64,000 nucleotides of DNA, from contig CP030158.1 of assembly GCA_003285105.1 (NCBI GenBank), forward strand, positions 1,402,501 to 1,466,500, in the 5' to 3' direction. Shown here in pieces: positions 18,509-56,230 of the stretch; position 1 is the first letter of the stretch, and every line of letters starts with the position of its first letter. The position numbers and the translations under genes were made by a program. Below the pieces are notes generated by a model. It was not told the origin of the DNA. It saw only the letters and a program-made list of their open reading frames with translations, and ran no database searches. This stretch comes from Roseithermus sacchariphilus (GTDB lineage Bacteria > Bacteroidota > Rhodothermia > Rhodothermales > MEBIC09517).

Positions 18509-19303
18509 CTAAAAATCCTTCCGCCGGAAGCGGCGCAGGCCCAGCCCGAGGGGGACGATGAGCCAGAGGCCGAGCGCCGTCAGCGACACGCCCGCGCCGA
18601 GGGTGCTGCCGAAGAACCGCTCGAAGACGGCCCCGGTGTAGCCCATCAGCGCCGAGACGTCGAAATGCAGCAGCAGCAGGACGCGGCCCAGGTCGATCGG
18701 GTTGAGGAGCGTCAGGGCGATCATGGGGCGTTCCAGGGGGTAGGCCGAGAGCGCCGCCACCAGCGCCAGCACCAGCCCGTCGTAGAGCACGGCGCCGGCG
18801 AGCCACAGCCCGACGGCCACGGCGAGCCCCCGCACGCGGTCCTCGAACCGCACCGCCAGCCAGAACGCCAGCGCCACGAACACGAGCGTCAGCAGCACGC
18901 CCACGGCCAGCAGCATCGCCAGCGTGGCGCCGCCGCCGCCGTGCAGCAGGAACGGCACGCCCACGCCCAGCACGAACCCCCCGGCCAGCGGCAGCGAGAG
19001 CCCGGCGTAGAGCCCGGCGAAGAGCTCGCCGCGCCGCACCGGCTGCGCCAGCATCAACTCCACGAACTCCCGTGCCTGGTACAGGTACAGCGCCCCGAAG
19101 ACGACGCCGACCAGCGGAATCAGGATGAGGACGACGTTGAGCAGGCTCAGCAGCACGCCCGTGCCGGTGCCGCCGAACTGGAACAGCCCCTCCGTGAGGC
19201 CGAAGAAGAACAGCGCGTAGAGGGTCACCCACCGGCTGCGCAGCACGTCGCTGAATTCGTACTGGAAGACCCGGGCGGTTGCTGTGGGGATGAGCGTGGT
19301 CAT
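18509..19303 (-). CDS. nosY: NosY, ABC transporter permease for copper-site maturation
   Basis: 264 residues, six hydrophobic segments (for example ALFFFGLTEGLF, VLLSLLNVVLILIPLVGVVFGALYLY, LLAVGVLLTLVFVALAF, VPLGLGL) of the ABC-2 permease type. NosY forms the membrane part of the NosDFY machine needed to build the CuZ centre of nitrous oxide reductase. Its ATG overlaps the nosF stop (ATGA, 19300-19303), so the two are translationally coupled. The downstream end runs straight into a heptamer satellite. Confidence 0.92.
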   Translation of the reverse strand: MTTLIPTATARVFQYEFSDVLRSRWVTLYALFFFGLTEGLFQFGGTGTGVLLSLLNVVLILIPLVGVVFGALYLYQAREFVELMLAQPVRRGELFAGLYAGLSLPLAGGFVLGVGVPFLLHGGGGATLAMLLAVGVLLTLVFVALAFWLAVRFEDRVRGLAVAVGLWLAGAVLYDGLVLALVAALSAYPLERPMIALTLLNPIDLGRVLLLLHFDVSALMGYTGAVFERFFGSTLGAGVSLTALGLWLIVPLGLGLRRFRRKDF

Positions 19304-20052
19304 GCGGCTTTTCCGGTCATCAGGTGAGCGAGGGCCCGTTCCAGGCGCGACTGGCCGGTGCGCTCCATGATCTCGGCGATGCTGCCACCGAAGCGCACGC
19401 GGCCATCGAGCAGAAACACGATCCGATCCGCCAGTTCTTCGATCTCGCTGATGATGTGCGAGGTCAGGATGAAGGTTTTGCCCCGGTCCTGCGCGGCGCG
19501 GATCTTGTCCTTGAGGATGCTGCTGGCGACGGGGTCGAGCCCGGCCGTCGGCTCGTCGAGGATGAGCAGGTCAGGGTCGAAGAGGAAGGCCAGCACGGCG
19601 CTGATGCGCTGGCGATTGCCGCCCGAGAGCGTCCGCAGCGGCTTGTCCAGTTCCGGCTCCAGGCCAAAGGCGTCGATGAGGGTTTCGTCCGTCGGAGCGG
19701 CGGCGCCGCGCAGGTCCTTCAGCAGCGCGATCACCTCCCGGCCCGTCAGGTTCTCCGGGAAGCGGGCGGCCTGCGGCATGTAGCCGATGCGGGCACGGTC
19801 GGCGCCGTCGGGGCGGAGCGGGCGGCCGTCGAGCAGGATGCGGCCGCCATCGGGCCGGACCAGCCCCAGGATGCTCTTGATGAGCGTCGTCTTGCCCGAG
19901 CCGTTGGGGCCGACGATGGCCGTCACCTGCCCGGCGGGCATCGTGGCGTCGACCCCGCGCAGCACGGGCAGCGCGCCGAAGGCCTTCTTCAGGCCGGTGA
20001 TGTGCAGGCGCGCCGGGGCGGCGGCCGGTGGAGCTAGCGGAACGATGTTCAT
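19300..20052 (-). CDS. nosF: NosF, ABC transporter ATPase
   Basis: 250 residues from the ATG at 20052. Walker A GPNGSGKT, signature LSGGNRQR, Walker B LLILDEPTAGLDP and the switch histidine in ILTSHIISEIEEL are all intact. It powers NosDFY, which acts on periplasmic NosD during assembly of the NosZ copper-sulfide centre. Both ends show four-base ATGA overlaps, with nosD upstream and nosY downstream. A much longer open frame to 21345 on this strand is the out-of-frame shadow of nosD. Confidence 0.95.
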   Translation of the reverse strand: MNIVPLAPPAAAPARLHITGLKKAFGALPVLRGVDATMPAGQVTAIVGPNGSGKTTLIKSILGLVRPDGGRILLDGRPLRPDGADRARIGYMPQAARFPENLTGREVIALLKDLRGAAAPTDETLIDAFGLEPELDKPLRTLSGGNRQRISAVLAFLFDPDLLILDEPTAGLDPVASSILKDKIRAAQDRGKTFILTSHIISEIEELADRIVFLLDGRVRFGGSIAEIMERTGQSRLERALAHLMTGKAA

Positions 20053-21371
20053 CGGACCAGGCGGTGCATGACGGGGTGGGTGTCCACGAGCGCCTCCGGC
20101 GTGAGCACCGGCAGGACGCGCTCGGCAGCGTCGAGCAGGTGGACGAAGAAGCTGCGCATCAACAGCAGCGCCGGCTCGTTGCGCTCGACGAGCAGCGTGA
20201 AGAGCCGCACCGGGCGGAAGGGCACGTCGCCCACGCCGTCGCGGTCGAGGTCGTAGCCTTCGTACTGATCCCAGTAGTTGCCGTCGAACGTGCTGTAGTG
20301 CTGGCGGCTGTTGGTGGCTACGTCGAAGGAGTTGGCGATGAAGTTGTTGCGGACGAAGCGGTTGGCCTCGGCGTCCGCCATGATCTTGACGGCCCAGCCG
20401 TTGGCCAGGAAGTCGTTGTCGATGACGTCGACCCGGTTGCTGCCCTCGGCATAGAGGCCGATGGTGTTCCGGTCGAAGACGTTGCGGGCCACGCGGCTGT
20501 CGGTGATGTCTTTCAGCAGCAGCCCGAAGGCCGCCGGCCCCCAGTTGTGCTCGAAGCGGTTGTCCGTCATCTCGACGTGCGCGGTGTACATCACGGCCAC
20601 GCCGGCATCGTTGGCGCGGAAGACGTTGCGGCGGTAGGCGCAGCGGTCGGAGAACATGAAGTGCAGCCCGTAGCGGTGGTTGCCCTCGCTGTGGTTGTCC
20701 TCCACCACGCTGTCCTCGACGAACTCCAGGTAGATGCCGTCGCGGTGCCCGCGCACGTCGTTGCCGGTGATGGTGACGTCCCGCGAGTACCACAGGTGGA
20801 TCCCGTTGCCGGACTGCGACTCGGTGGCCCGGGTGCCGCGGAGGACGTTGTCCGCCACCGTGACGTAAGCAGCCCTGGAGAGGTAGATGCCGAAGAACGT
20901 ATCCTCGAAGCGGTTGCCTTCGATCCGCACGTGCCAGGCCTCGTCGACCTTGACGGCAGCGCGGTCCTCGACGAAGCTGGTGGCGACGTTGCGGAAGGTG
21001 AAGCCGCGCACCGTCACGCTGTCCGCGGTGATGGTGAGGATCTGGTGCGTGCCGTCGCCGTCCAGCACCGCCCCGGCCTCTCCGACCAGCTCCACCGGCC
21101 GGTCGATCACCAGCGCCCCCTCGCGGTAGATGCCGGGGCGGACGAGGATGCGCGCGCCCGGTTCGGCCTGTGCCAGCGCCTCGCGCACCGACGCCACCGG
21201 CCCGGCCGGGTCCACGACGAGCGTCTGCGCCCGCACCGGCCCGATCAGCGCGAGCAGGGCGAGGAGGGAAACGACCCACCGGCCGGCCGGTCGCCCCGGC
21301 GTCCGCCCGCCTCCCGTGGCGGCTATCCCCGCGCACACGGGACACGCGTCGGCGGCAACCGATGACGTCAT
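20049..21371 (-). CDS. nosD: NosD, periplasmic copper-site maturation protein
   Basis: 440 residues from the ATG at 21371, giving a hydrophobic signal segment (RWVVSLLALLALIGPVRAQ) after a short charged N-terminus. The body is a parallel beta-helix with many NxF/NxV-type CASH repeats (GFTFRNV, IEGNRFEDTFFGIYL, DNRFEHNWGPAAFGLLL, NTIGLYAEGSNRVDVIDND). NosD interacts with NosFY in maturation of the CuZ site of N2O reductase. The frame stays open to 21818, but those residues overlap palindromic and GIY-YIG DNA and are not family-like. Confidence 0.93.
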   Translation of the reverse strand: MTSSVAADACPVCAGIAATGGGRTPGRPAGRWVVSLLALLALIGPVRAQTLVVDPAGPVASVREALAQAEPGARILVRPGIYREGALVIDRPVELVGEAGAVLDGDGTHQILTITADSVTVRGFTFRNVATSFVEDRAAVKVDEAWHVRIEGNRFEDTFFGIYLSRAAYVTVADNVLRGTRATESQSGNGIHLWYSRDVTITGNDVRGHRDGIYLEFVEDSVVEDNHSEGNHRYGLHFMFSDRCAYRRNVFRANDAGVAVMYTAHVEMTDNRFEHNWGPAAFGLLLKDITDSRVARNVFDRNTIGLYAEGSNRVDVIDNDFLANGWAVKIMADAEANRFVRNNFIANSFDVATNSRQHYSTFDGNYWDQYEGYDLDRDGVGDVPFRPVRLFTLLVERNEPALLLMRSFFVHLLDAAERVLPVLTPEALVDTHPVMHRLVR

Positions 21372-21412
21372 CCCGTTCGATGCCTCTTGCTTCCTGGTGC
21401 GTCGGCTTCTGG

Positions 21413-21432
21413 ATTCCCGCTTTTGCGGGGAT
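21413..21432. repeat. Palindromic repeat next to the GIY-YIG gene, left side
   Basis: ATTCCCGC-TTTT-GCGGGGAT, an 8-bp stem with one wobble pair, 84 bp upstream of the GIY-YIG gene. It shares the ATTCCCGC arm with the perfect hairpin on the other side. Confidence 0.7.
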
Positions 21433-21515
21433 GGCGACACAGAGTATTGCTTCTTGAATCCCTGTACACGTTCCTCTGAAACAGAAGCGTCTCTGCTCTC
21501 CGTCACCCCTGCGCT

Positions 21516-21809
21516 ATGCCGAAGCGTGGCTACGTCTACATCCTCGCCAGCCGCCGTAATGGCACCCTGTACATCGGCGTCACGAGCAACCTGGAACGAC
21601 GCGTCTGGGAGCACCGACAAGGGCTGCATGGCGGCTTTACCCGGCGCTATGCGGTCCACAGGTTGGTGTACGTAGAAGAGCATGACGATATTCAGCGGGC
21701 GATTGTGCGCGAGAAGCAGATGAAGAAGTGGCGGCGGGCCTGGAAGCTGGAACTCATCGAATCGCTCAACCCAAACTGGGATGACCTCTTTGAGCAACTG
21801 CGTGGGTAG
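21516..21809 (+). CDS. Small GIY-YIG nuclease-domain protein (UPF0213-like)
   Basis: 97 residues. The GIY-YIG core is visible as YVYILASRRNGTLYIGVTSNL followed by R-x-x-E-H, and the C-terminal part reads IQRAIVREKQMKKWRRAWKLELIESLNPNWDDL, the standard ending of this single-domain family. It is transcribed opposite to the nos genes and splits nosL from nosD. Palindromes with ATTCCCGC arms flank it on both sides (21413-21432 and 21897-21922). Single-domain GIY-YIG genes are often mobile-looking; whether this one is tied to the palindromes is inference. Confidence 0.92.
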   Translation: MPKRGYVYILASRRNGTLYIGVTSNLERRVWEHRQGLHGGFTRRYAVHRLVYVEEHDDIQRAIVREKQMKKWRRAWKLELIESLNPNWDDLFEQLRG

Positions 21810-21896
21810 CGTCGACACGGAGAAATCATGGGGGCTACCATAGTACGCGACCGTTTATGCATCGTTGGTCATCGACGTCTGCACACCTCGCCGTCC

Positions 21897-22060: not shown

Positions 22061-22546
22061 TCAGCGGGGTCGGGTGTGGGCGTGGCCGCCGGCGGCTTGC
22101 CGGGTCTGCACGAGGGCGAGCACGTCGTCCCAGGTCAGGATCTCGCCGCCGTGCTCGGCGCGGAGGCGGGCCGGGTCGGCGGTGGGCGCGAAGGCTGTCA
22201 GGTTCATACCCATCGGGCTGCGCAGGGCGGGGCTGTGCAGGAATACGGCGTCTTCGGCCGGGATGAGCGTGCCGGGCTGCTCGAAGTCGGTGACCCAGAG
22301 CGAGTGGATGCGGTCGGTACCGTCTCGCTCTTGCAGCAGGTATCCGGCGAGGCATTCGATGGAATCGAAGACGTAGGTCTTGCCCGTGGTCGTCACCAGT
22401 TCGGCGCCGTAGCGCGCGTCCGAGACGGTCATGATGCAATGGGCGCAGGTATCCTCGCCGTAGCGGATGGGGCGGGGCTCGGGCGTGCAGGCGGCCGGCA
22501 GCGCCAGCAGCATCAGCAGGGCGAGGCGGAGGGCCGGGGAGCGCAT
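22061..22546 (-). CDS. nosL: NosL, copper-chaperone lipoprotein
   Basis: 161 residues. Signal peptide ending LPAAC (lipobox, Cys20), then the Cu(I)-binding CAHCIM motif (about residues 34-39) and the conserved segments AELVTTTGKTYVFDSIECLAGYL and FLHSPALRSPMGMNLTAF. NosL delivers copper for the NosZ CuZ centre. The gene starts 4 bp after the stop of the upstream membrane-protein gene, so they are one transcription unit. nosD would follow but for the inserted opposite-strand GIY-YIG gene and ~690 bp. Confidence 0.94.
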   Translation of the reverse strand: MRSPALRLALLMLLALPAACTPEPRPIRYGEDTCAHCIMTVSDARYGAELVTTTGKTYVFDSIECLAGYLLQERDGTDRIHSLWVTDFEQPGTLIPAEDAVFLHSPALRSPMGMNLTAFAPTADPARLRAEHGGEILTWDDVLALVQTRQAAGGHAHTRPR

Positions 22547-22550
22547 CGTC

Positions 22551-23144
22551 TCAGGCCACCTCCAGCCGGGTCGAGCGGCGCCGCTCCAGGACGAGCGCGA
22601 CCAGGCCGATCAGGAACGCCCCGAAGGCGATCCATCCGCCTGCGGCGGGCCACGACGACGCCGTGATGTTGAGCATCTGCTTCGTGCCGATCAGCGGCGG
22701 CTGGTAGGTCATCCCCGGCACCTTGATGATGGCCGTGGCCTCGTCCAGGTTGTGGCCGTAGTCGTAGCCCCAGCGGTAGAAGTCCGCCAGGCTGACGATC
22801 ATCACCAGGGCAAAGAGCACCACCCAGGCCGTGAGCATCCAGCGCTTGCCGAGGGCCGCGCCGAGCAGCCCGAAGCCGATCAGGAAGCCGAAGACCCAGG
22901 GCAGGATCTTCAGCTCCGGGATGGAATCCGGCACGATGGGCCTCATGCCGATGTAGTGGTTCAGCCCGTTGATGCTCTCCAGGTTACCCGGGTTCTGGCC
23001 CCGGATGGTGTTGACCTCGATGTACATCCCCAGGCCTTCAGGGTATTGCGGTGCGTCCAGCGTGATGTGCCACAGCGGCAGTACGTACACCGCCAGCAGC
23101 GCCAGCGACGCCAGAGCCAGCAGGATTCGAGAGCGGGCGGTCAT
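22551..23144 (-). CDS. Nos-cluster integral membrane protein, unknown function
   Basis: 197 residues with about four transmembrane segments: ILLALASLALLAVYVLPLW (near 6-25), ILPWVFGFLIGFGLLGAAL, WMLTAWVVLFALVMIVSLADF and the C-terminal WIAFGAFLIGLVALVLE. Between TM1 and TM2 lies an external loop with NINGLNHYIGM-like wording (SINGLNHYIGMRP). Position between nosZ and nosL matches uncharacterised membrane proteins in clade II nos operons of Bacteroidota-type genomes; a role in copper or electron supply to NosZ is inferred from position only. Confidence 0.8.
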   Translation of the reverse strand: MTARSRILLALASLALLAVYVLPLWHITLDAPQYPEGLGMYIEVNTIRGQNPGNLESINGLNHYIGMRPIVPDSIPELKILPWVFGFLIGFGLLGAALGKRWMLTAWVVLFALVMIVSLADFYRWGYDYGHNLDEATAIIKVPGMTYQPPLIGTKQMLNITASSWPAAGGWIAFGAFLIGLVALVLERRRSTRLEVA

Positions 23145-23236: not shown

Positions 23237-25216
23237 TCAGCGGGAGGCGGTGGTCAGCGTCCCGCCGGTGCCGTAGGCGAGCGGGACGTCACTGCCGGCC
23301 GGGGAGACGCGGACGTAGCCCTGCATCTCCTGGTGCAGCGCCGAGCAGAAGTCCGTGCAGTAGAACGGGAAGACCCCGACGCGCTCCGGCTTCCACACCA
23401 GCGTGCGGGTCTGGCCCGGCATGATGAGCAACTCGGCGTTGTTCGCCCCCAGCACCGCAAAGCCGTGCGGGACGTCCCAGTCCTGCTCCAGGTTGGTCAC
23501 GTGGAAGTAGACCGTGTCGCCCACCTTGATGCCCTCGATGTTGTCCGGGGCGAAGTGGCTGCGGATGGTGCTCATGTAGACGTGCACCTCGTTGCCGTTG
23601 CGCTCGACGCGCGTCTCACCCTCGCCCTTGACGGCATAGGGGTTCTTGTTCTCGGAGAGCTGGTACATCTTCACCTGGCGGTCCTTGATGACGTCCGCCG
23701 CGATGGCCTGCGCGTAGTGCGGCTCGCCCATCGTCGGGAAGTCGAGCAGCAGCCGCATCTTGTCGCCGCTGATGTCGATCAGCTGCGCGGCGTGGGCCAG
23801 TTCCGGGCCGGTGGGCAGGTAGCGGTCCTTCGTGATCTTGTTGAGCGCGACGAGGTACTTGCCCCACGGCCGGCGGCTGTCCCCGCCCGGTATCATCAGG
23901 TGGCCGACGCTGTAGTAGACGGGGATGCGGTCCACCACCTCGAACGTCTCCAGGCTCCACTTGACGATCTCCGAGGAGATGAAGGCCGTCGTGTAGGCGT
24001 AGCCGTTGCCGTCGAACTCGGTGTGGAGCGGCCCGAGGCCGGGGTTCTCCACCTCGCCGGCGATGATGGCCTCGTACTGCAGCACCGGGATGCCGTCGAC
24101 GACCGTCTCGAAGCGCTCGTTCTCGATGGCGTCGATCATCTTGCGGAACGAGTGCACGGGGATGACCGTCGCCAGCTTGCCCCCGGCCACGATGTACTCA
24201 CCCGTGGGGTCCACGTCGACGCCGTGGGGCGACTTGGGCGTGGGCAGGAAGTAGACGAGGTTCGGGCAGTCGGAGGGCTCGAGCACGGTCACCTCGGTCT
24301 TCAACTCGTGCCGGGCGATGTGGGCCTCGTCGAAGTGGTTGTGGGCGTAGCGGGCGGGCATCGTCCGGGCCGCGCCGCCGGCCACGCACTCCTCGGCCCG
24401 CCGCCAGTTCACCGCGGCGATGAAGTCCTTGTCATTCTGCGAGGCGTTGATCTCCAGCAGCGTGTTGGCCTCCTCGCTGTTGTAGCTGGTGAAGAACATC
24501 CAGCCGTCCGAGGGGCCTTTGCCGGCGTGCGCCAGGTCGTAGTTGTAGCCCGGCACCAGGATCTGGAAGGCCACGTCCATCTCACCGGGCCGGTCGGCGC
24601 GGATGAAGGAGAGCGTGCCCTTGAAGTTCTGCTTGTACGAGTCGATCGAGACGTCCTGCTGCGGCACCGGCACGCTGAAGCGCGTCGAGGCGACGAGGTA
24701 CTCGGAGTTCGGCGTGATGAACGGCGAGCCGTGGTTGCCCGCCGAGTTCGGGATCTCCAGGATCTCGTCCGTCTCGAACGTGGTCAGGTCGATGCGCGCC
24801 ACGCGCGGCGTGTTGTTGCCGTTGATGAAGATCCAGCGGCCGTCCGGCACGCCGTCGGTCATCGACAGCTCGGGATGGTGGGCGTCGTCCCACGGGACGA
24901 AGCCGTGCGAGGTCATCAGCATGTTCTTCGTCTCCTCGCTGTAGCCCCAGCCGTTTTCGGGGAACTGCGAGAAGACGGGGACGGTCTTGAGCAGCCGCCC
25001 GGAGGGCAGGCCGTGGACCGTCAGGTTGCCGCTGAAGCCGCCCGACATGAAGGCGTAGAACTCGTCGTGCTGGCCCGGGGGGACGTAGACGCGCTGGGCG
25101 GCGTCGCCGTCGGCCAGGCCGGCCGAGCCGGTGGTGCGGCAGGCGTTGACCAGCACCGCCGCCAGCACAAGGGCGGCGATGCCGAGGGTGATGCGGAAGA
25201 CAGGTCGGTTCAACAT
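23237..25216 (-). CDS. nosZ: Nitrous oxide reductase, clade II (Sec-dependent) type
   Basis: 659 residues. Reduces N2O to N2 in the periplasm. The N-terminus is a Sec/lipoprotein-like signal (VLAAVLVNAC) without a twin-arginine motif, marking the clade II enzyme. The beta-propeller carries CuZ histidines, for example in DDAHHPELSMTDG, HNHFDEAHIARHE, SPHGVDVDPTG and LGPLHTEFDGNG. The C-terminal cupredoxin domain has the CuA ligands: H in YFHVTNLEQDWDVPHGF and C-x3-C-x3-H-x2-M in FYCTDFCSALHQEM. Length and motifs look complete. It lies between the cytochrome c and membrane-protein genes on the same strand. Confidence 0.97.
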   Translation of the reverse strand: MLNRPVFRITLGIAALVLAAVLVNACRTTGSAGLADGDAAQRVYVPPGQHDEFYAFMSGGFSGNLTVHGLPSGRLLKTVPVFSQFPENGWGYSEETKNMLMTSHGFVPWDDAHHPELSMTDGVPDGRWIFINGNNTPRVARIDLTTFETDEILEIPNSAGNHGSPFITPNSEYLVASTRFSVPVPQQDVSIDSYKQNFKGTLSFIRADRPGEMDVAFQILVPGYNYDLAHAGKGPSDGWMFFTSYNSEEANTLLEINASQNDKDFIAAVNWRRAEECVAGGAARTMPARYAHNHFDEAHIARHELKTEVTVLEPSDCPNLVYFLPTPKSPHGVDVDPTGEYIVAGGKLATVIPVHSFRKMIDAIENERFETVVDGIPVLQYEAIIAGEVENPGLGPLHTEFDGNGYAYTTAFISSEIVKWSLETFEVVDRIPVYYSVGHLMIPGGDSRRPWGKYLVALNKITKDRYLPTGPELAHAAQLIDISGDKMRLLLDFPTMGEPHYAQAIAADVIKDRQVKMYQLSENKNPYAVKGEGETRVERNGNEVHVYMSTIRSHFAPDNIEGIKVGDTVYFHVTNLEQDWDVPHGFAVLGANNAELLIMPGQTRTLVWKPERVGVFPFYCTDFCSALHQEMQGYVRVSPAGSDVPLAYGTGGTLTTASR

Positions 25217-25260: not shown

Positions 25261-25314
25261 CTCAGGGGGCCGGGGTGGCTCAGGGGGCCGGGGTGGCTCA
25301 GGGGGCCGGGGTGG
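25261..25314. repeat. 18-bp tandem repeat, three units, overlapping the cytochrome c stop
   Basis: CTCAGGGGGCCGGGGTGG occurs three times head to tail (25261, 25279, 25297). The third copy encodes the last residues and stop codon of the cytochrome, so the repeat arose by duplication of the gene end; the other two copies are untranslated. Confidence 0.85.
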
Positions 25315-25789
25315 CTGCGGGCTGCTGGGTGCGGAGGAACTCCAGGATGGCGCGGGCTTCGTCGTGCGTCAGCGTCTGGTTCGGCATCGGCGTCATGTAC
25401 TGCGCCAGCAGCTCCCGGGCGGCGGGGTGCTTCTGGAGCATCTCCTCCGGGTTGAGCATCATGTTCATGACGTAGGCCGGGCTGCGGCGCGTGAGGACAT
25501 CGCCCAGCGGCGGGCCGACGTAGCGCTGGTCCATCTTGTGGCAGGCCGCGCATTTCATGTTGAACACGGCTTCGCCCTGTGCCGCCAGCGCGGCGTCGAT
25601 CTCGGCTTCCAGCGTCATGGCCGAGACGGGGCCGATGCCGTGCTCGAGCTGGGCGTCGGTCAGGCCGCCCGGGTTGTCCGGGCTCGTGGCGGCGGCCGGG
25701 GCGGCGGCCTCGGGCTCGGCCCCCCCGCAGGCGGCCAGGCCGGCGGAGGCGATGAGCAGCAGGGCGAGCAGCAGAGCGCGTGTGGGCAT
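25298..25789 (-). CDS. Mono-haem c-type cytochrome lipoprotein, likely electron donor to NosZ
   Basis: 163 residues from the ATG at 25789, which has an AGAGG ribosome-binding site; an ATG 18 bp upstream is in frame but lacks one. Lipoprotein signal ends GLAAC. The haem motif is CAACH (in FNMKCAACHKMD) and the axial methionine is probably in YMTPMPNQTL. Its position directly before nosZ is the standard clade II arrangement, where such cytochromes pass electrons to the CuA site. An 18-bp Rrf2-type motif lies 21 bp upstream of the start. Confidence 0.92.
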   Translation of the reverse strand: MPTRALLLALLLIASAGLAACGGAEPEAAAPAAATSPDNPGGLTDAQLEHGIGPVSAMTLEAEIDAALAAQGEAVFNMKCAACHKMDQRYVGPPLGDVLTRRSPAYVMNMMLNPEEMLQKHPAARELLAQYMTPMPNQTLTHDEARAILEFLRTQQPAATPAP

Positions 25790-25810
25790 GATGGCAACCT
25801 CTGTCATGGA

Positions 25811-25831: not shown

Positions 25832-26296
25832 TTACGAATGCGCCGACGCAGCGTCCGGCGATGTGGTCCAGCAGGCCTGCCAGGCGGCCAGGCGTTCCGG
25901 TTCGGCCACGAGCATGGCCAGGGTAGTCCCGGCAAAAGCGTTCCTCAGGCAGCCGCGGACCTCCTTCCAGTCCTCGTGCAGGGGGCAGGGTTTCTGCTCG
26001 CCGCAGCCGGGCAGCCCCAGCACGCAGGCCTCGAACAGGTCCGGCCCGTCGATGGCGACGACGATCTCTTTCAGCGTGATCTGCCCGGGCGGGCGAGCCA
26101 GCGCCACCCCGCCGTGCGGGCCGCGCAGCGAGCGCAGCAGTCCGTGGTGCGTCAGGTGTTGCAAGACTTTGGTCAGAAAGTGGAACGAAAGGCCGAGGCA
26201 CTCGCTGATGCGCTGGATCGGTATGTAGGCGCCTCGTTCCTGGCTGGCCAGAAAGAGGGCGGCCTGGAGCCCGTAGGTGCAGCGGCGCGAGAGCAT
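25832..26296 (-). CDS. Rrf2-family Fe-S transcription regulator, copy 1
   Basis: 154 residues from MLSRRCTYGL (ATG 26296); a longer frame to 26389 reads through the promoter region. Winged helix-turn-helix at about 1-65 (YIPIQRISECLGLSFHFLTKVLQHLTHHGLL), followed by GGVALARPPGQITLKEIVVAIDG, the Rrf2 signature. Three cysteines (91, 98, 104) in C-x6-C-x5-C-P-L-H can hold an Fe-S cluster, as in NsrR/IscR-type sensors. It is the first gene upstream of the cytochrome-nosZ genes and has its own copy of the shared motif, so NO- or O2-responsive control of nos and of itself is inferred. Confidence 0.9.
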   Translation of the reverse strand: MLSRRCTYGLQAALFLASQERGAYIPIQRISECLGLSFHFLTKVLQHLTHHGLLRSLRGPHGGVALARPPGQITLKEIVVAIDGPDLFEACVLGLPGCGEQKPCPLHEDWKEVRGCLRNAFAGTTLAMLVAEPERLAAWQACWTTSPDAASAHS

Positions 26297-26309: not shown

Positions 26310-26327
26310 TTTAGGACTCTTTTGTCT
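26310..26327 (-). promoter_or_regulatory. Putative Rrf2 operator, rrf2 copy 1 promoter
   Basis: Minus-strand AGACAAAAGAGTCCTAAA with an inner GAC-N6-GTC dyad, 13 bp before the rrf2-1 start and directly downstream of a TATAAT-like hexamer. Identical to the site at the TonB receptor promoter. Confidence 0.65.
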
Positions 26328-26562
26328 TTATTATAAGAACATCGGATGCCGCGTCCAACAGGTCCTCTCCGCTTCCACGCAAACTTCATGCTTTCGGCTG
26401 TGAGCGGTCAGCTGTCAGGGGTCAGCGGTCAGGGGTCAGCCAGGAGCCAGCCGCTTGCGAAGGGGAGGTGTCGCGCCGCGACGGAGGGGTAGCCCCTCGG
26501 CGAGGGCGGCTTCGCGGCGGGGTGTGACCCCCTTTCCCCTTCGGGGACTTCCCCCTGTGCAG
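26310..26562. repeat. Long direct repeat (copy 1), shared promoter plus GC-rich repeat
   Basis: About 250 bp nearly identical to 28679-28922. It contains the Rrf2 motif and TATAAT-like promoter, ~75 bp of unique-looking sequence, a heptamer satellite and a copy of the GC-rich hairpin repeat (26453-26562). It is upstream of rrf2-1 and downstream of the TonB receptor gene. Confidence 0.88.
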
Positions 26563-26667: not shown

Positions 26668-28620
26668 TCAGTACACCAGGCGCAGGCCCAGGCGCAGCGT
26701 GCGGCCGGGTTCGTAGACCGGGAGCCCTGAGGCAAAGGGGGAGCGGGCGTAGGAGAGATGCTGGTAGTACAGCGTATTGGTGAGGTTCTCCAGGTCGGCC
26801 GTCACCTCCACGGCGCCGAGCGCATACGTGGCGCCAACGTCCAGCCGGCCCCAGGCGGGGGTGCGGGTCTCGCCCAGCGCCTCGTCGATGCGGGGCTGGG
26901 CGGCGGCCGCCTCTGCGCGCACGCTGGCGCTGAGGCCGCGCCACCGGGGCGAGCGCAGCGTGGTATGCATCTGGAGCGGCGCGATTTCGGCCAGGGGGCG
27001 GTTTTCTGTCAGGTTCTCGCCGAGGGTATAGCTGATCTGCGCCGTGGCATACGGGCCGTCGGCCCGGAGCGTTACGCCCGTCAACCACGCGCCCACGTTA
27101 GCATAGGTGATGAAGCGGGCCTCATCCCGGGCAGCGGGCGTCAGCGTCACGTAGTTGTCGGCGAGGGTGGTGAAGACCTCGCCGGTGAAGGCCCCCCGGC
27201 CCAGGAGTCCGCGCAGCGTGGCCCGTCTGGGGGCGGCGAGGGTCGGGTTGCCGGTCCAGGTCGGTTGGCCCTGCATGCGGCGCAGGCCGACGTACAGATA
27301 CTCCGGCGCCGGGGCCTCGGTGGCCAGGTCGAGCGTGAGCCCGCCCAGCAGGCGGTCCGTCAGCATCGTACGGGCGGAGAGCGAGAGCGCAGCGGGTACG
27401 AACCAGCGGGCGTCGACCGCGTCGGGGTAGAGCGTCTGGTAGAAGGAGAGCCGTGCAGCCTCCCCGATGGCGGTGCGCGTCAGCCCGAGGCGGCCGCTCA
27501 GCGTGAAGGCCCCGCGTGCGACGTCCCGCGCCAGGCTGGTCGAGATGAGGTGCAGGTCCGGCATCATGTGCTGGCGCATGGGTTGCATCGCCATGCCGCT
27601 CGCCATGCCGCCCTGCATGTTGCTGCCCATGGGCGCCATCGTCATGGTGTTCCACGTGTCCCAGTTGCGGTAGTAGATCTCGTAGCCGGGCCCCGTCAGC
27701 CCGATCGTGAGATGGCGCGCGTCGTTCTCCATCGCCATGGTGGCCGCGTTTGCCCGGAGCCGGTTGTCCATGAGATGGTAGGTGTGGTTGACGTAGAGGC
27801 GATGCCCCTGGTAGGCCAGAAATGCGTTCCACATCGTGTTTTCGCGCTCGTCCATCCGCAGGTAGGGGAACGGGATGTCCTGCCCGACCGAGAGCCCGGC
27901 GCCGTAGGTCCAGGCGTTTGCCTCGCCCTGGAAGGCCATCTCAGCGAGGGTATAGGGAGACTCCTGCAGGTAGTCGTAGCGTTCGATGAAGCTTCGGTCT
28001 CGAGCGTCGCGGTAAGGTTGTCCGTGCACGAAGCGGCCCGTGAGGCGATGGCGGCGACCCTCCAGGGCCAGCGCGGCGTCGAGGGTCTGGTCATTCAGGC
28101 CGGCATAGACCAGGTTGCCCCGTACGCGCCAGGCCTCGGGCGGAGCCGCCCGCCGAAAGGCGACCTGCCCGCCAAGCCCGGAACCGACCTCGGCCGCGGA
28201 CTTGTCCAGCCGCACCGATTCCATTTCCAGCGGGTTGACCCGCACGGCGGGTGGGTCCATCCGGTTGGGGCAGGCGTTGGGATAGCGCTCTCCGTCGATC
28301 ACCACCTCCACGTCTCCGCGCTTGAAGCCATCGAGGTAGACGTCGCTCGCCAGCAGCACACCGCGGCGGATCAGACCGACGCCGCTCGCCTGCAGGGCTT
28401 GCTGTACCGCCTCCTTGCCGATCAGCGTGGCCCGCTGCGTCAGGTGCAGCCGCCGCGCGCTGACGTGCACCTCCTGCAGTTCGTAAAACCAGCGGCCGTC
28501 CTCCTCATGACGAGCCTGCAGCACCGTGTCGGCCCGGAGGACGTAGACGGTGTCTACCTGAGCCAGGGCAGGCCCCGCCGTTATCGTCAGCGCAAGTACG
28601 CACCAGAGCAGCGATTTCAT
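26668..28620 (-). CDS. NosA/OprC-like TonB-dependent copper receptor
   Basis: 650 residues: signal peptide ending GPALA, plug domain to about 165, then a beta barrel ending in the outer-membrane signature LRLGLRLVY. The plug has C117-P-N-R-M121 in YPNACPNRMDPP, the C-x3-M copper motif known from OprC/NosA, and the barrel has H282-L-M284, a candidate for the partner HxM. A methionine-rich loop lies at about 326-353 (three MxxM-like groups and HMM). OprC/NosA-type receptors import copper, and NosA supports N2O reductase assembly. Its promoter carries the same motif as the rrf2 genes. No TonB box was assigned. Confidence 0.88.
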   Translation of the reverse strand: MKSLLWCVLALTITAGPALAQVDTVYVLRADTVLQARHEEDGRWFYELQEVHVSARRLHLTQRATLIGKEAVQQALQASGVGLIRRGVLLASDVYLDGFKRGDVEVVIDGERYPNACPNRMDPPAVRVNPLEMESVRLDKSAAEVGSGLGGQVAFRRAAPPEAWRVRGNLVYAGLNDQTLDAALALEGRRHRLTGRFVHGQPYRDARDRSFIERYDYLQESPYTLAEMAFQGEANAWTYGAGLSVGQDIPFPYLRMDERENTMWNAFLAYQGHRLYVNHTYHLMDNRLRANAATMAMENDARHLTIGLTGPGYEIYYRNWDTWNTMTMAPMGSNMQGGMASGMAMQPMRQHMMPDLHLISTSLARDVARGAFTLSGRLGLTRTAIGEAARLSFYQTLYPDAVDARWFVPAALSLSARTMLTDRLLGGLTLDLATEAPAPEYLYVGLRRMQGQPTWTGNPTLAAPRRATLRGLLGRGAFTGEVFTTLADNYVTLTPAARDEARFITYANVGAWLTGVTLRADGPYATAQISYTLGENLTENRPLAEIAPLQMHTTLRSPRWRGLSASVRAEAAAAQPRIDEALGETRTPAWGRLDVGATYALGAVEVTADLENLTNTLYYQHLSYARSPFASGLPVYEPGRTLRLGLRLVY

Positions 28621-28678: not shown

Positions 28679-28696
28679 TTTAGGACTCTTTTGTCT
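28679..28696 (-). promoter_or_regulatory. Putative Rrf2 operator, TonB receptor promoter
   Basis: AGACAAAAGAGTCCTAAA on the minus strand, identical to the rrf2-1 site, 58 bp before the TonB receptor start and preceded by a TATAAT-like hexamer. Confidence 0.65.
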
Positions 28697-28922
28697 TTAT
28701 TATAAGAGCATCAGATGCCGCGTCCAACAGGTCCTCTCCGCTTCCACGCAAACTTCATGCTTTCGGCTGTGAGCGGTCAGCCGTCGGCGGTCAGGGGTCA
28801 GCCAGAAGCCAGCCGCTTGCGAAGGGGAGGTGTCGCGCCGCGACGGAGGGGTAGCCCCTCGGCGAGGGCGGCTTCGCGGCGGGGTGTGACCCCCTTCCCC
28901 CTTCGGGGACTTCCCCCTGTTC
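28679..28922. repeat. Long direct repeat (copy 2)
   Basis: Second copy of the ~250-bp repeat at 26310-26562, with a few substitutions and a shorter heptamer stretch. It places the same promoter ahead of the TonB receptor gene. Its right part (28813-28956) is a GC-rich hairpin repeat copy. Confidence 0.88.
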
Positions 28923-28963
28923 GGCCTGCGGCCAGGGGGAAGGGCTCGTTCTGGCACGATGCC

Positions 28964-29217
28964 AGCAGCCCACAGCCAGCAGCCCACAGCCAGCAGCCCA
29001 CAGCCAGCAGCCCACAGCCAGCAGCCCACAGCCAGCAGCCCACAGCCAGCAGCCCACAGCCAGCAGCCCACAGCCAGCAGCCCACAGCCAGCAGCCCACA
29101 GCCAGCAGCCCACAGCCAGCAGCCCACAGCCAGCAGCCCACAGCCAGCAGCCCACAGCCAGCAGCCCACAGCCAGCAGCCCACAGCCAGCAGCCCACAGC
29201 CAGCAGCCCACAGCCAT
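28964..29217. repeat. 14-bp tandem array, about 18 units
   Basis: AGCAGCCCACAGCC repeated head to tail with almost no change, itself two heptamers (AGCAGCC, CACAGCC). It is the most regular member of the heptamer family here. Because 14 is not a multiple of 3, all frames stay open and produce spurious low-complexity reading frames. No gene is seen in the 28621-29276 gap. Confidence 0.95.
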
Positions 29218-29276: not shown

Positions 29277-29717
29277 TCAAGAATCCGCCCGGGTCGTGAG
29301 GCGGACGTCCAGCTGGTCGATGCGGTCGGCCATGTCGGCCAGGGTGGTGCCGGCGAAGAGGGCGTCGAGGCGGGCGCGTTCGGTGGCCCAGGCGGCGTGC
29401 AGGGGGCAGGGTTTCTGCTCGCCGCAGCCGGGCAGCCCCAGCACACAGGCCTCGAACAGGTCCGGCCCGTCGATGGCGACGACGATCTCTTTCAGCGTGA
29501 TCTGCCCGGGTGGACGGGTGAAGGCGACGCCGCCGTTCGGCCCGCGGTAAGAGGTCAGCAGGCCGGCCTGGGTGAGCTGCTGGAAGATCTTGGTCAGAAA
29601 CGGGAATGAGATCCCCAGGTCCTCGCTGAGCCGCCGGATGGGCACGTAGCCCCCGGCGTCGAGCGAGGCCAGATACAGAGCGGCGCGCAGGCCGTATTCG
29701 CAGGCGCTGGACAGCAT
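29277..29717 (-). CDS. Rrf2-family Fe-S transcription regulator, copy 2
   Basis: 146 residues from MLSSACEYGL (ATG 29717). Same layout as copy 1: winged helix (YVPIRRLSEDLGISFPFLTKIFQQL), GGVAFTRPPGQITLKEIVVAIDG and cysteines 91, 98 and 104 in C-x6-C-x5-C-P-L-H. Residues 72-107 are identical in the two proteins, and the DNA for that stretch differs at a single position in about 114, while the flanking halves have diverged. It heads the TonB receptor region, with its own copy of the shared motif 18 bp upstream. Confidence 0.9.
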   Translation of the reverse strand: MLSSACEYGLRAALYLASLDAGGYVPIRRLSEDLGISFPFLTKIFQQLTQAGLLTSYRGPNGGVAFTRPPGQITLKEIVVAIDGPDLFEACVLGLPGCGEQKPCPLHAAWATERARLDALFAGTTLADMADRIDQLDVRLTTRADS

Positions 29718-29735: not shown

Positions 29736-29753
29736 CTTCGGACGTTTTTGTCT
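29736..29753 (-). promoter_or_regulatory. Putative Rrf2 operator, rrf2 copy 2 promoter
   Basis: Minus-strand AGACAAAAACGTCCGAAG, the most diverged of the four sites but with GAC-N6-GTC intact. Its flanks differ from the other copies, so the match is not due to the large direct repeat. Confidence 0.55.
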
Positions 29754-29797
29754 TAAAACGGGACCACATACAATCGTCACGTGAGAAGGTTGCAGCT

Positions 29798-30250
29798 TTC
29801 AGCGGTCAGCCGTCAGCCTTCAGCCCCCAGCCAGAAGCCCGAAGCCCACAGCCCGCAGCCCGCAGCCCACAGCCAGAAGCTCCTCCCCTTGCGAAGGGGA
29901 GGTGTCGCGCAGCGACGGAGGGGTAGACTCGGATGATGGCGGCAGTGCGGCAGTGATGACCCCCTTCCCCCCTTCGGGGGACTTCCCCCTGTACGGCCTG
30001 CGGCCAGGGGGAAGGACTGCTGGTACGATGCCATCAGCCCACAGCCCACAGCCCGCAGCCCACAGCCCACAGCCCACAGCCCGCCGCCATCAGCCCACAG
30101 CCATCAGCCCACAGCCATCAGCCCCCAGCCAGAAGCCCGAAGCCCACAGCCAGAAGCCCGCAGCCCGCAGCCAGAAGCCCGCAGCCCACAGCCAGAAGCC
30201 CGCAGCCCACAGCCAGAAGCCCGCAGCCCACAGCCAGAAGCCCGCAGCCC
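29798..30250. repeat. Composite repeat gap: heptamers around one GC-rich hairpin repeat
   Basis: Heptamer units at 29798-29882 and 30030-30250 (CAGCCAG, AAGCCCG, CAGCCCA) enclose a hairpin-repeat copy at about 29884-30022 with the CCCCTTGCGAAGGGG stem. This fills the gap between rrf2-2 and the transporter gene; no gene or promoter is recognised. Confidence 0.85.
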
Positions 30251-38716: not shown

Positions 38717-39541
38717 TCAGGACAGGCAAAAGTGGGCCGTGAGGCCGGCCGCGTTCGCCGCCTTCTTCACCGCACGTTGCCCCCGGATCGGGTGGAGGTG
38801 ATGCCGGCGGCGCGTGCGGGTGCGCGGATCGACTGAAAAGGTAGGCGAGGCGAATACGTACTGCCATTTCCATTCAAACGGTGCCTGCGGGTATTTGCGG
38901 GCCAGGGCATTGGGCAGTTCGACCTCGTGCATCCCTTCTGCCCGGTCGGCTTCGTACTGGCGGCGGCGCTCATCGAGGTGCGCGTAGAGGTCGGCTTTCA
39001 GCGAAGCCGGCAACGGGACGCGCCGATCCTTGTCTCCCTTGCCGGCCCGCACCGTGATCTCGCTCCGGTCGGAGCCCAGGTCCTGAACCCGCAGGCGCAA
39101 CGCTTCGGAGATGCGCATACCCGTGCCGTAGAGTAGGCGCCCGACCAGGCTTTCGACACCCTGGAGGTGGGCCAGGAGGGCCTGTACTTCGGGGCGGCTC
39201 AGGACGACGGGAAGCCGTTTCGGCCGCCGGGCGCGGGGGAAGTCGCTGAAGTCGCCCGGCTCTTTCTTCAGCACGTGGCGGTACAGGAAGACGAGGGCGC
39301 CCAGCGCCTGATTCTGCGTGGAGGCCGTCACACGCCGCTTCGTGGCGAGGTAGGTCAGGAACTGCTGGATTTCCGGCGCAGCCATGTCCGACGGTCGGCG
39401 TCCTCCATGGAAGATCACGAACCGCCGGATCCACTGGACGTACGCCTTTTCGGTGCGCAGTGCATAGTGCCTCGTGCGCAACGCTTCCCGAACGGCACGG
39501 TCCAGGGCCTGCAGGTTGGCTTTCCGGAAAGGATGAGGCAT
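38717..39541 (-). pseudogene. intI: Truncated integron-type tyrosine recombinase (IntI)
   Basis: 274 residues starting MPHPFRKANLQALDRAVREA. The core-binding domain and box I arginine (GRLLYGTGMRISEALRLRV) are intact, and the IntI-specific insertion is present: ALARKYPQAPFEWKWQYVFAS then DPRTRTRRRHHLHP-x4-QRAVKKAANAAGL. The reading frame then ends at TAHFCLS. The missing ~50 residues would carry the H-x-x-R and the nucleophilic tyrosine, so the enzyme cannot be active. No remainder is found in other frames downstream. It points to a former integron; IS630 and IS3 copies lie next to it. Confidence 0.88.
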
Positions 39542-39665: not shown

Positions 39666-40268
39666 TCAATAATGTTGAGGCAGGAAGCCGCAGTGCTGGA
39701 ACCATCCCGCGGCATCCGCCGCCGTCACCTGCTCGGTGGCATACTCCACGGCCTCCAGCAGCGCTTCCGCCGTGTCCGCACAGGCCTTCTTGATCAGATG
39801 CTTCAACTTCGACCACAGCAGTTCGATCGGATTGAACTCCGGACTGTAGCGCGGCAGCGGCCGGACGCAGGCGCCCCGCGCCTCGATCTGTTCGACCAGG
39901 TCCGGTGCCTCGTGGATGCGCGCGTTGTCCCACAGCACGATGTCGCCCGGCTTGAGTACCGGCAGCAGGTGCTGCTGGATGAACCCGCGGAAGTGCCAGC
40001 GCCGCACCGTGCCGGTATGCATGGCCACCGTGCCGGCTCCATCAAAGCCCAGCCAGCCCAGCAAGCTGACGCGTTTTCCCTGCCGCAGCGGGGCCTGACA
40101 GACCAGGCGCTCGCCCCGAGGCGCATAGCCGTAGGCCAGGCGCATGCCCTGGATGACTCCGCTTTCATCAACGGCTTTGATCCTGGTCGCATCGACCGTA
40201 CCGAGCCAGTCGCGGAAGGCGGCCCGCTCGGCTACGACGTCGGGGCGCTGTTGCTGCGCGGCCTGCAT
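39666..40268 (-). CDS. IS630 transposase, catalytic part (orfB)
   Basis: 200 residues with the DDE catalytic triad: D in KAVDESGVIQGMRLAYGY, D in DIVLWDNARIHEAPDL and E in FNPIELLWSKLKHL. It overlaps orfA by 37 bp. A run of eight A on the minus strand (about 40272-40279) just upstream of this ATG lies in the overlap zone of open frames and is a likely slippage site, so the active protein would be an orfA-orfB fusion made by frameshifting, as in other IS630 elements. Confidence 0.9.
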   Translation of the reverse strand: MQAAQQQRPDVVAERAAFRDWLGTVDATRIKAVDESGVIQGMRLAYGYAPRGERLVCQAPLRQGKRVSLLGWLGFDGAGTVAMHTGTVRRWHFRGFIQQHLLPVLKPGDIVLWDNARIHEAPDLVEQIEARGACVRPLPRYSPEFNPIELLWSKLKHLIKKACADTAEALLEAVEYATEQVTAADAAGWFQHCGFLPQHY

Positions 40269-49761: not shown

Positions 49762-50148
49762 GGGTGGCTTTCAGCTTTCAGCGGTCAGCGGTCAGCGTTC
49801 TGGCTCGACGCGAGGGTGCTTGCCGTGCAGCCGTTCGCTGAATGCTGCTGGCTGCTGGCTGACGGCTGCTGGCTTCGGACTGCTGGCTTCGTGTGACGCA
49901 GGTTCTTCCCCCTGGCCGCAGGCCGCACAGGGGGAAGGTCCCCGAAGGGGGGAAGGGGGTCATGAGCGCTGCGATGCCGCCAGCGCCCGGGGTAGACTCC
50001 TCCGTCGCTGTGCGACACCGACCTTTCGCATGGGGAGGGGCTGAAAGCTGACGGCTGAAAGCTGACGGCTGAAAGCTGACGGCTTTGTGGTTTTCCGCCG
50101 TGCAGCCGATTATTCGTCAGCCGTCTTCCGTCCGTCGAGTCAGGTGCC
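49762..50148. repeat. Composite repeat gap: heptamers with one GC-rich hairpin repeat
   Basis: Heptamers at 49769-49895 change orientation within the run (CAGC units, then GCTG units). A hairpin-repeat copy follows at about 49905-50040, then short heptamers to 50085 (GCTGACG, GCTGAAA). The 60 bp before the glycosyltransferase start look unique. No gene is seen. Confidence 0.85.
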
Positions 50149-54867: not shown

Positions 54868-54934
54868 GGGCTGCGGGCTGAAAGCTGCTGGCTGCTGGCT
54901 GCTGGCTGCTGGCTGCAAGCTGCTGGCATCGTGC
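54868..54934. repeat. Heptamer satellite after pyrG
   Basis: About nine units in GCTG orientation (TGGCTGC, AAGCTGC) start at the pyrG stop and lead into the 167-bp array. Confidence 0.8.
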
Positions 54935-54942
54935 CGGAACGA

Positions 54943-56084
54943 GCCCTTCCCCCTGGCCGCAGGCCGCACAGGGGGAAGTCCCCCGCAGGGGGGAAGGGGG
55001 TCAACACCCACCGCATCGCCGCCATCGCCCGGGGTCTACCCCTCCGTCGCTGCGGGCCACCTCCCCTTCGCAAGGGGAGGAGTTGGATGGCGCTATCGGA
55101 TCGGGCCACGCCCTTCCCCCTGGCCGCAGGCCGCACAGGGGGAAGTCCCCCGCAGGGGGGAAGGGGGTCAACACCCACCGCATCGCCGCCATCGCCCGGG
55201 GTCTACCCCTCCGTCGCTGCGGGCCACCTCCCCTTCGCAAGGGGAGGAGTTGGATGGCGCTATCGGATCGGGCCACGCCCTTCCCCCTGGCCGCAGGCCG
55301 CACAGGGGGAAGTCCCCCGCAGGGGGGAAGGGGGTCAACACCCGCCGCATCGCCGCCATCGCCCGGGGTCTACCCCTCCGTCGCTGCGGGCCACCTCCCC
55401 TTCGCAAGGGGAGGATCTGGATGGCGCTATCGGATCGGGCCACGCCCTTCCCCCTGGCCGCAGGCCGCACAGGGGGAAGTCCCCCGCAGGGGGGAAGGGG
55501 GTCAACACCCACCGCATCGCCGCCATCGCCCGGGGTCTACCCCTCCGGCCCTGCGGGCCACCTCCCCTTCGCAAGGGGAGGAGTTGGATGGCGCTATCGG
55601 ATCGGGCCACGCCCTTCCCCCTGGCCGCAGGCCGCACAGGGGGAAGTCCCCCGCAGGGGGGAAGGGGGTCAACACCCGCCGCATCGCCGCCATCGCCCGG
55701 GGTCTACCCCTCCGGCCCTGCGGGCCACCTCCCCTTCGCAAGGGGAGGATCTGGATGGCGCTATCGGATCGGGCCACGCCCTTCCCCCTGGCCGCAGGCC
55801 GCACAGGGGGAAGTCCCCCGCAGGGGGGAAGGGGGTCAACACCCACCGCATCGCCGCCATCATCCGGGTCTACCCCTCCGGCCCTGCGGGCCACCTCCCC
55901 TTCGCAAGGGGAGGAGTTGGATGGCGCTATCGGATCGGGCCACGCCCTTCCCCCTGGCCGCAGGCCGCACAGGGGGAAGGTCCCCGAAGGGGGGAAGGGG
56001 GTCAACACCCGCCGCATCGCCGCCATCGCCCGGGGTCTACCCCTCCGGCCCTGCGGGCCACCTCCCCTTCGCAAGGGGAGGAGT
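54943..56084. repeat. 167-bp tandem array, about 6.8 copies
   Basis: Units start with CCCTTCCCCCTGGCC and have a period of 167 bp (marker ATGGCGCTATCGG at 55087, 55254, 55421, 55588, 55755; then 166 to 55921). Each unit carries several GC hairpins, for example CCCCTTCGCAAGGGG and the TTCCCCCT/AGGGGGAA pair. Copies differ at a few sites: CGTCGCTGCGG in the first three against CGGCCCTGCGG later, and GAGTT against GATCT. Single dispersed copies occur at 26453, 28813, 29884 and 49905. Open frames across it are artefacts; no gene is seen. Confidence 0.95.
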
Positions 56085-56177
56085 TGCGGGCTTCTGGCTG
56101 CGGGCTTCTGGCTGCGGGCTTCTGGCTGACGGCTGACCGCTGACGGCTGACCGCTGACGGCTGACCGCTGACAGGCA
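56085..56177. repeat. Heptamer satellite after the 167-bp array
   Basis: GCGGGCTTCTGGCT units and then GCTGACGGCTGACC units, all with 7-bp period. Confidence 0.85.
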
Positions 56178-56230
56178 TGAATGTTGCGCGAGGGGGGGCG
56201 TGTTGCGCATGAGAGCCTCACCGCCCCGCC

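Follow-up and report, generated by a model that had tools for sequence, protein, structure and literature searches.

A predicted OprC-like TonB-dependent copper receptor that shares its putative operator with a clade II nitrous oxide reductase operon

We analysed a 64,000-nucleotide stretch of the Roseithermus sacchariphilus genome (the window; contig CP030158.1, positions 1,402,501–1,466,500) that carries a gene for an OprC-like TonB-dependent receptor on the minus strand (26668–28620; window coordinates throughout). The open reading frame is intact, with the coordinates given by the initial annotation, and encodes 650 amino acids with a signal peptide at about residues 1–20 (MKSLLWCVLALTITAGPALAQ) and a TonB-box-like ELQEVHVSA at about residues 47–55. 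Downstream and on the same strand lie rrf2a (25832–26296, start at 26296), which encodes an Rrf2 regulator; a gene for a lipoprotein-like cytochrome c (25298–25807) that precedes nosZ; nosZ itself (23237–25216); a nos-cluster gene for a conserved membrane protein (22551–23144; no Pfam or NCBIfam family); the copper chaperone gene nosL (22061–22546); an ORF containing nosD (20049–21818; the family match covers residues 212–585, and the true start is probably further in); and the genes for the NosF ATPase (19300–20052) and the NosY permease (18509–19303). Upstream of the receptor gene, also on the minus strand, is rrf2b (29277–29717), a paralog 64% identical to rrf2a. The two rrf2 genes flank the receptor gene, each with its own operator copy, and two other loci (L149 and L150) likewise have two rrf2 genes before nosZ. 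NosZ scores 954.2 bits with the Sec-dependent model (TIGR04246) and 390.6 bits with the TAT model, both with a cut-off of 625, and is therefore a clade II enzyme, as had been proposed. No NirK above cut-off was found in the genome.

Pfam assigned no domain to the receptor, and a phmmer search of the PDB with the single receptor sequence returned no match; the relationship to OprC is visible only with a profile. Searched against the PDB, a profile of 57 relatives gave OprC as its top match (322 bits, E = 5.5 × 10−95) and PhuR as the second (147 bits). The profile alignment places OprC ACPNRMD on ACPNRMD of the family and OprC H323-I-M325 on H282-L-M284, with OprC C143, M147, H323 and M325 all in register with C117, M121, H282 and M284 of the receptor. 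Both motifs stand where the initial annotation had put them, C117-P-N-R-M121 in the plug (codons at 28258–28272, minus strand) and H282-L-M284 in the barrel (27769–27777, minus strand), and C117 is the sole cysteine after the signal peptide. The two motifs and M256 (27853–27855, minus strand) are invariant across the 57 relatives, although the invariance of CPNRM is partly circular, given that the loci were gathered partly with the seed NACPNRMD, whereas H-x-M was unselected. In a profile search made without the seed, every close-family match kept C-x3-M and H-x-M, CPMRM variants included. The methionine-track residues of OprC (M286, M341 and M343; PMC8610252) fall, by alignment only, on M256, M295 and M297 (M295-A-M297 codons at 27730–27738, minus strand), and M297 is invariant within the close family. 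The reported Met-rich loop at about residues 326–353 (27562–27645, minus strand) holds 10 methionines in 28 residues (p about 7 × 10−11 against the remainder of the receptor) and is a low-confidence loop in the predicted structure. The protein is thus most likely an OprC-like CxxxM–HxM TonB-dependent receptor, with putative copper ligands assigned by alignment register, and it most likely imports copper across the outer membrane in the manner of OprC and NosA.

OprC of Pseudomonas aeruginosa (6FOK, 6Z8x), which uses CxxxM–HxM to bind both Cu(I) and Cu(II) (PMC8610252), and NosA of P. stutzeri share with the receptor the TonB fold, both motifs in register and the Met track, and NosA resembles it further in its tie to N2O reduction. 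They differ in that the receptor is only about 18–20% identical to them, resides in a clade II nos locus with an Rrf2-type operator and carries the extra Met-rich loop (326–353). With the equivalog model for TonB-dependent copper receptors (TIGR01778), it scores 66.6 bits, far under the cut-off of 472.45, and its relatives in genomes G021 and G044 score 58.1 and 56.4 bits. A tree of 60 receptors groups it with the G021, G044 and Kapabacteria sequences, in a clade with sequences of Ignavibacteria and WOR-3; a long branch separates this clade from OprC. OprC itself groups with a Guyparkeria protein, a placement made unsure by the length of its own branch. On the TIGR01778 score and the tree, an OprC/NosA ortholog was rejected and the receptor filed as a divergent OprC-like subfamily rather than as NosA. 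Of the initial assignment to a NosA/OprC-like copper receptor, the likeness to OprC therefore stands, in ligand register and Met track, but orthology to NosA does not.

Other receptors and small proteins came to light in the same comparisons. A separate group of TonB receptors in the order (Rhodothermales) has C-[VI]-D-x-M and H-x-M where the present receptor has CPNRM and HLM (L085, L087–L089, L091, L096, L099 and L142), and a group related to it lacks the cysteine (L086, L090, L092, L094, L095 and L097). Many close-family receptors are preceded by a protein of 123–146 amino acids with an N-terminal hydrophobic stretch, an invariant C...C-x-G-x-C-x-L and a Pro-rich C-terminus (L002 8778–9149, L004 9471–9848, L006 9427–9816 and L008 9492–9878; on the minus strand, L155 10941–11327, L157 10942–11325, L159 11218–11622 and L161 11023–11460). 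It belongs to no Pfam or NCBIfam family, is a candidate accessory copper protein and was not seen beside the receptor of the window.

The receptor gene and the rrf2a–cytochrome c–nosZ operon are preceded by the same putative control elements. At both, a palindrome (TTAGGAC-N6-GTCYTAA) directly follows a TATAAT box, confirming the suggestion that the receptor is under the same motif as the clade II nosZ. At the receptor gene, the Rrf2-type operator (28680–28699, minus strand; TTAGGAC-N6-GTCTTTA on the plus strand) is abutted by the promoter-like TGGACG-16-TATAAT (28699–28726, minus strand), and the identical operator and promoter-like site of the rrf2a operon lie at 26311–26330 and 26330–26357 (both minus strand). 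These two promoter-like sites, each abutting an operator, are the only ones between 26200 and 29900, where 0.2 would be expected. The operator core (GGACNNTTTTGTCTT), with at most one mismatch, has three matches in the 4.8-Mb genome, all at the nos/receptor locus (before rrf2a, before the receptor and before rrf2b); the reversed pattern matches once genome-wide. The upstream regions of the receptor and of the rrf2a operon are 95% identical over 249 bp (28679–28920 against 26310–26558, comprising the duplicated promoter region and a dispersed repeat), and the receptor promoter region arose recently as a copy of the one upstream of rrf2a. The two sites therefore count as one event in this genome. 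The copy before rrf2b (29737–29756, minus strand) has unrelated flanks and so lies outside the duplication; it and G021 are independent cases. G021, with a receptor 50% identical to that of the window, has the palindrome in front of the receptor gene, rrf2 and cytochrome c–nosZ alike; no operator was found beside the receptor in G044.

The dispersed repeat, of about 110–120 bp, into which the duplicated receptor promoter region partly extends, occurs together with intergenic tandem 14-bp repeats at 28961–29216, 29870–30249, 49919–50084 and 54869–56190. Two adjacent ORFs elsewhere in the window (38717–39541 and 39666–40268) resemble, by eye, an integron-integrase-type tyrosine recombinase and an IS630-like transposase.

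The palindrome also occurs at or just before rrf2 in eight nos clusters of the order that have no receptor (L138, L141, L142, L143, L145, L146, L149 and L150), where about 0.3 occurrences would be expected per 20 kb; some such clusters gave no match at the threshold. Given its presence before rrf2–nosZ in these clusters, it is most likely an old operator of the rrf2–nos operon that the receptor joined later. It was not found upstream of those receptors from outside the order that were examined, so the operator claim is confined to the order. We infer that Rrf2 is the protein that binds the palindrome, and an operator placed right behind the TATAAT box points to repression. The three cysteines of rrf2a (C91-x6-C98-x5-C104) are invariant in 14 aligned Rrf2 proteins, and a regulator of this composition probably uses an Fe–S cluster to sense NO or redox state. 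With the NsrR/IscR kind of regulator, the two proteins of the window share the Rrf2 domain and the cysteine triad usual in Fe–S members; they differ from it in the C-x6-C-x5-C spacing and the predicted operator and reach no equivalog cut-off (44.8 and 55.9 bits with the NsrR equivalog, below its cut-off of 182). Because the receptor gene and the nitrous oxide reductase genes have almost the same promoter, the cell probably produces the receptor and the enzyme together.

Clade II nosZ is present in 31 of 60 genomes of the order, and the receptor is inside the cluster in only two (G000 and G021); it is absent from the other 20 nosZ loci fetched in the order, some of which end at contig ends. G044 carries the receptor family, with its nosZ on another contig. 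Since the majority of nos clusters in the order are without it, the receptor is a recruited rather than a standing part of clade II nos. Members of the subfamily are also found within nos clusters of Ignavibacteria (between nosF and nosY; L004 and L006) and WOR-3 (after nosY; L009 and L014). More distant CPNRM receptors sit beside nos genes in about 20 Bacteroidales and Chlorobiota loci; those in the nos operons (L036, L045, L054 and others) likewise have CPNRM...HxM, are about 20–25% identical to the receptor, are nearer to OprC by TIGR01778 (254 bits) and follow the order nosD, small protein, receptor, Fe–S proteins. In a sample of 296 genomes of the phylum, 34 carry a receptor (at least 400 bits), and 22 of these have clade II nosZ, where 11 would be expected (Fisher p = 7 × 10−5, a statistic that ignores shared ancestry). 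Receptor and nosZ are within 40 kb of each other in 8 of these 22 genomes (0.5 expected; three of the eight belong to one genus, and ancestry is uncorrected). Tandem nosZ-like genes were seen in Bacteroidales and Chlorobiota nos operons (L036, 2225–4471 and 4505–6886; similar tandems in L035, L045, L050, L052, L054, L056, L058, L062 and L075); by TIGR04246 the first gene scores 469 bits, below the cut-off of 625, and the second 684 bits, above it.

Taking locus, family and operator together, we put the probability at roughly three in four that the protein is a TonB-dependent OprC-like (CxxxM–HxM) copper importer placed under the operator of the clade II nos operon. A less probable but still credible reading is that of a general copper receptor serving all copper enzymes, an oxidase as well as NosZ, that is merely expressed with nos: most close relatives are located away from nos, and OprC/NosA is present in non-denitrifiers (PMC8610252). 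Such a role fits less well with an operator that, genome-wide, is common only to the receptor, rrf2b and rrf2a–cytochrome c–nosZ, with the recurrent placement of such receptors in nos clusters and with a genome that has no NirK above cut-off.

The identity of the ligand bears on the second alternative. An AlphaFold2 model of the receptor (pLDDT 89.1, pTM 0.85) has the plug and barrel of a TonB receptor, and both Foldseek and VIA-align ranked OprC first (Z = 36.5, 551 residues, 2.8 Å), so the superposition on OprC proposed at the outset did return it as the closest fold. The receptor might instead take up zinc, in the manner of ZnuD, or heme, or a small molecule that binds copper in place of the ion itself. 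After OprC, the next-best folds and profile matches are ZnuD and heme receptors, and NCBIfam gives weak heme-receptor matches. We consider this improbable, as the Cys/Met/His/Met residue set is that of OprC and OprC leads the profile search by 175 bits. Heme receptors carry a His between the EAP and NPTL boxes; none lies between these boxes here (about 432–434 and 458–461), and a heme receptor was rejected. ZnuD of Neisseria shares the fold, with a metal site positioned similarly to that of OprC (PMC8610252), but its site is for zinc, it lacks the CxxxM–HxM set, and it has a lower profile score and superposes on the model with a lower Z (32.8). Least probable is a chance neighbour unlinked to nos, its shared promoter a mere by-product of the 249-bp duplication, which would account for the 95% identity running into the dispersed repeat but not for the operator that G021 has before its receptor and next to its nos operon, or for the recurrence of the linkage to nos in other lineages.

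If the receptor is a copper importer under the nos operator, the Met-rich outer loop and the Met track (M295, M297 and M256) would gather Cu(I) and hand it on to a buried site, to which the plug would contribute C117 and M121 and the barrel H282 and M284. Energy from TonB would then open the plug and admit copper to the periplasm, from where NosL and NosDFY would load NosZ. Rrf2 bound to the palindrome near the transcription start would repress both the receptor and rrf2–cytochrome c–nosZ until a signal arrives, whereupon receptor and NosZ would be produced together. We infer the copper binding and transport by the receptor, the signal to Rrf2 and the benefit to NosZ; the regulation would fit a dedicated copper supply for NosZ. 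On a wider scale, we lean slightly towards a picture in which OprC-like receptors have been recruited repeatedly into clade II nos loci (Bacteroidota, Ignavibacteria and WOR-3) and, within the order, have joined an Rrf2 regulon whose operator is conserved, where import would be co-induced with NosZ by an Fe–S sensor of NO or redox state and not by copper.

In P. stutzeri, NosA is required for NosZ in one strain and dispensable in another (PMC8610252; PMC7558416), a nosA knockout having had no effect in one strain (PMC8610252). A Flavobacteriaceae genome has the order nosZ–nosL–nosD–nosF–nosY without a receptor (PMC7477175). In the open-access papers searched, no TonB copper receptor is reported for a clade II nos cluster, nor is outer-membrane copper entry for clade II NosZ described. 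The link between copper receptors and N2O reduction is known mainly from another group of N2O-reducing bacteria. Copper scarcity often makes N2O reduction fail, and reducers of clade II form a major sink for N2O. With a receptor gene that has its promoter and operator in common with nosZ, the route of copper through the outer membrane to clade II NosZ becomes directly testable.
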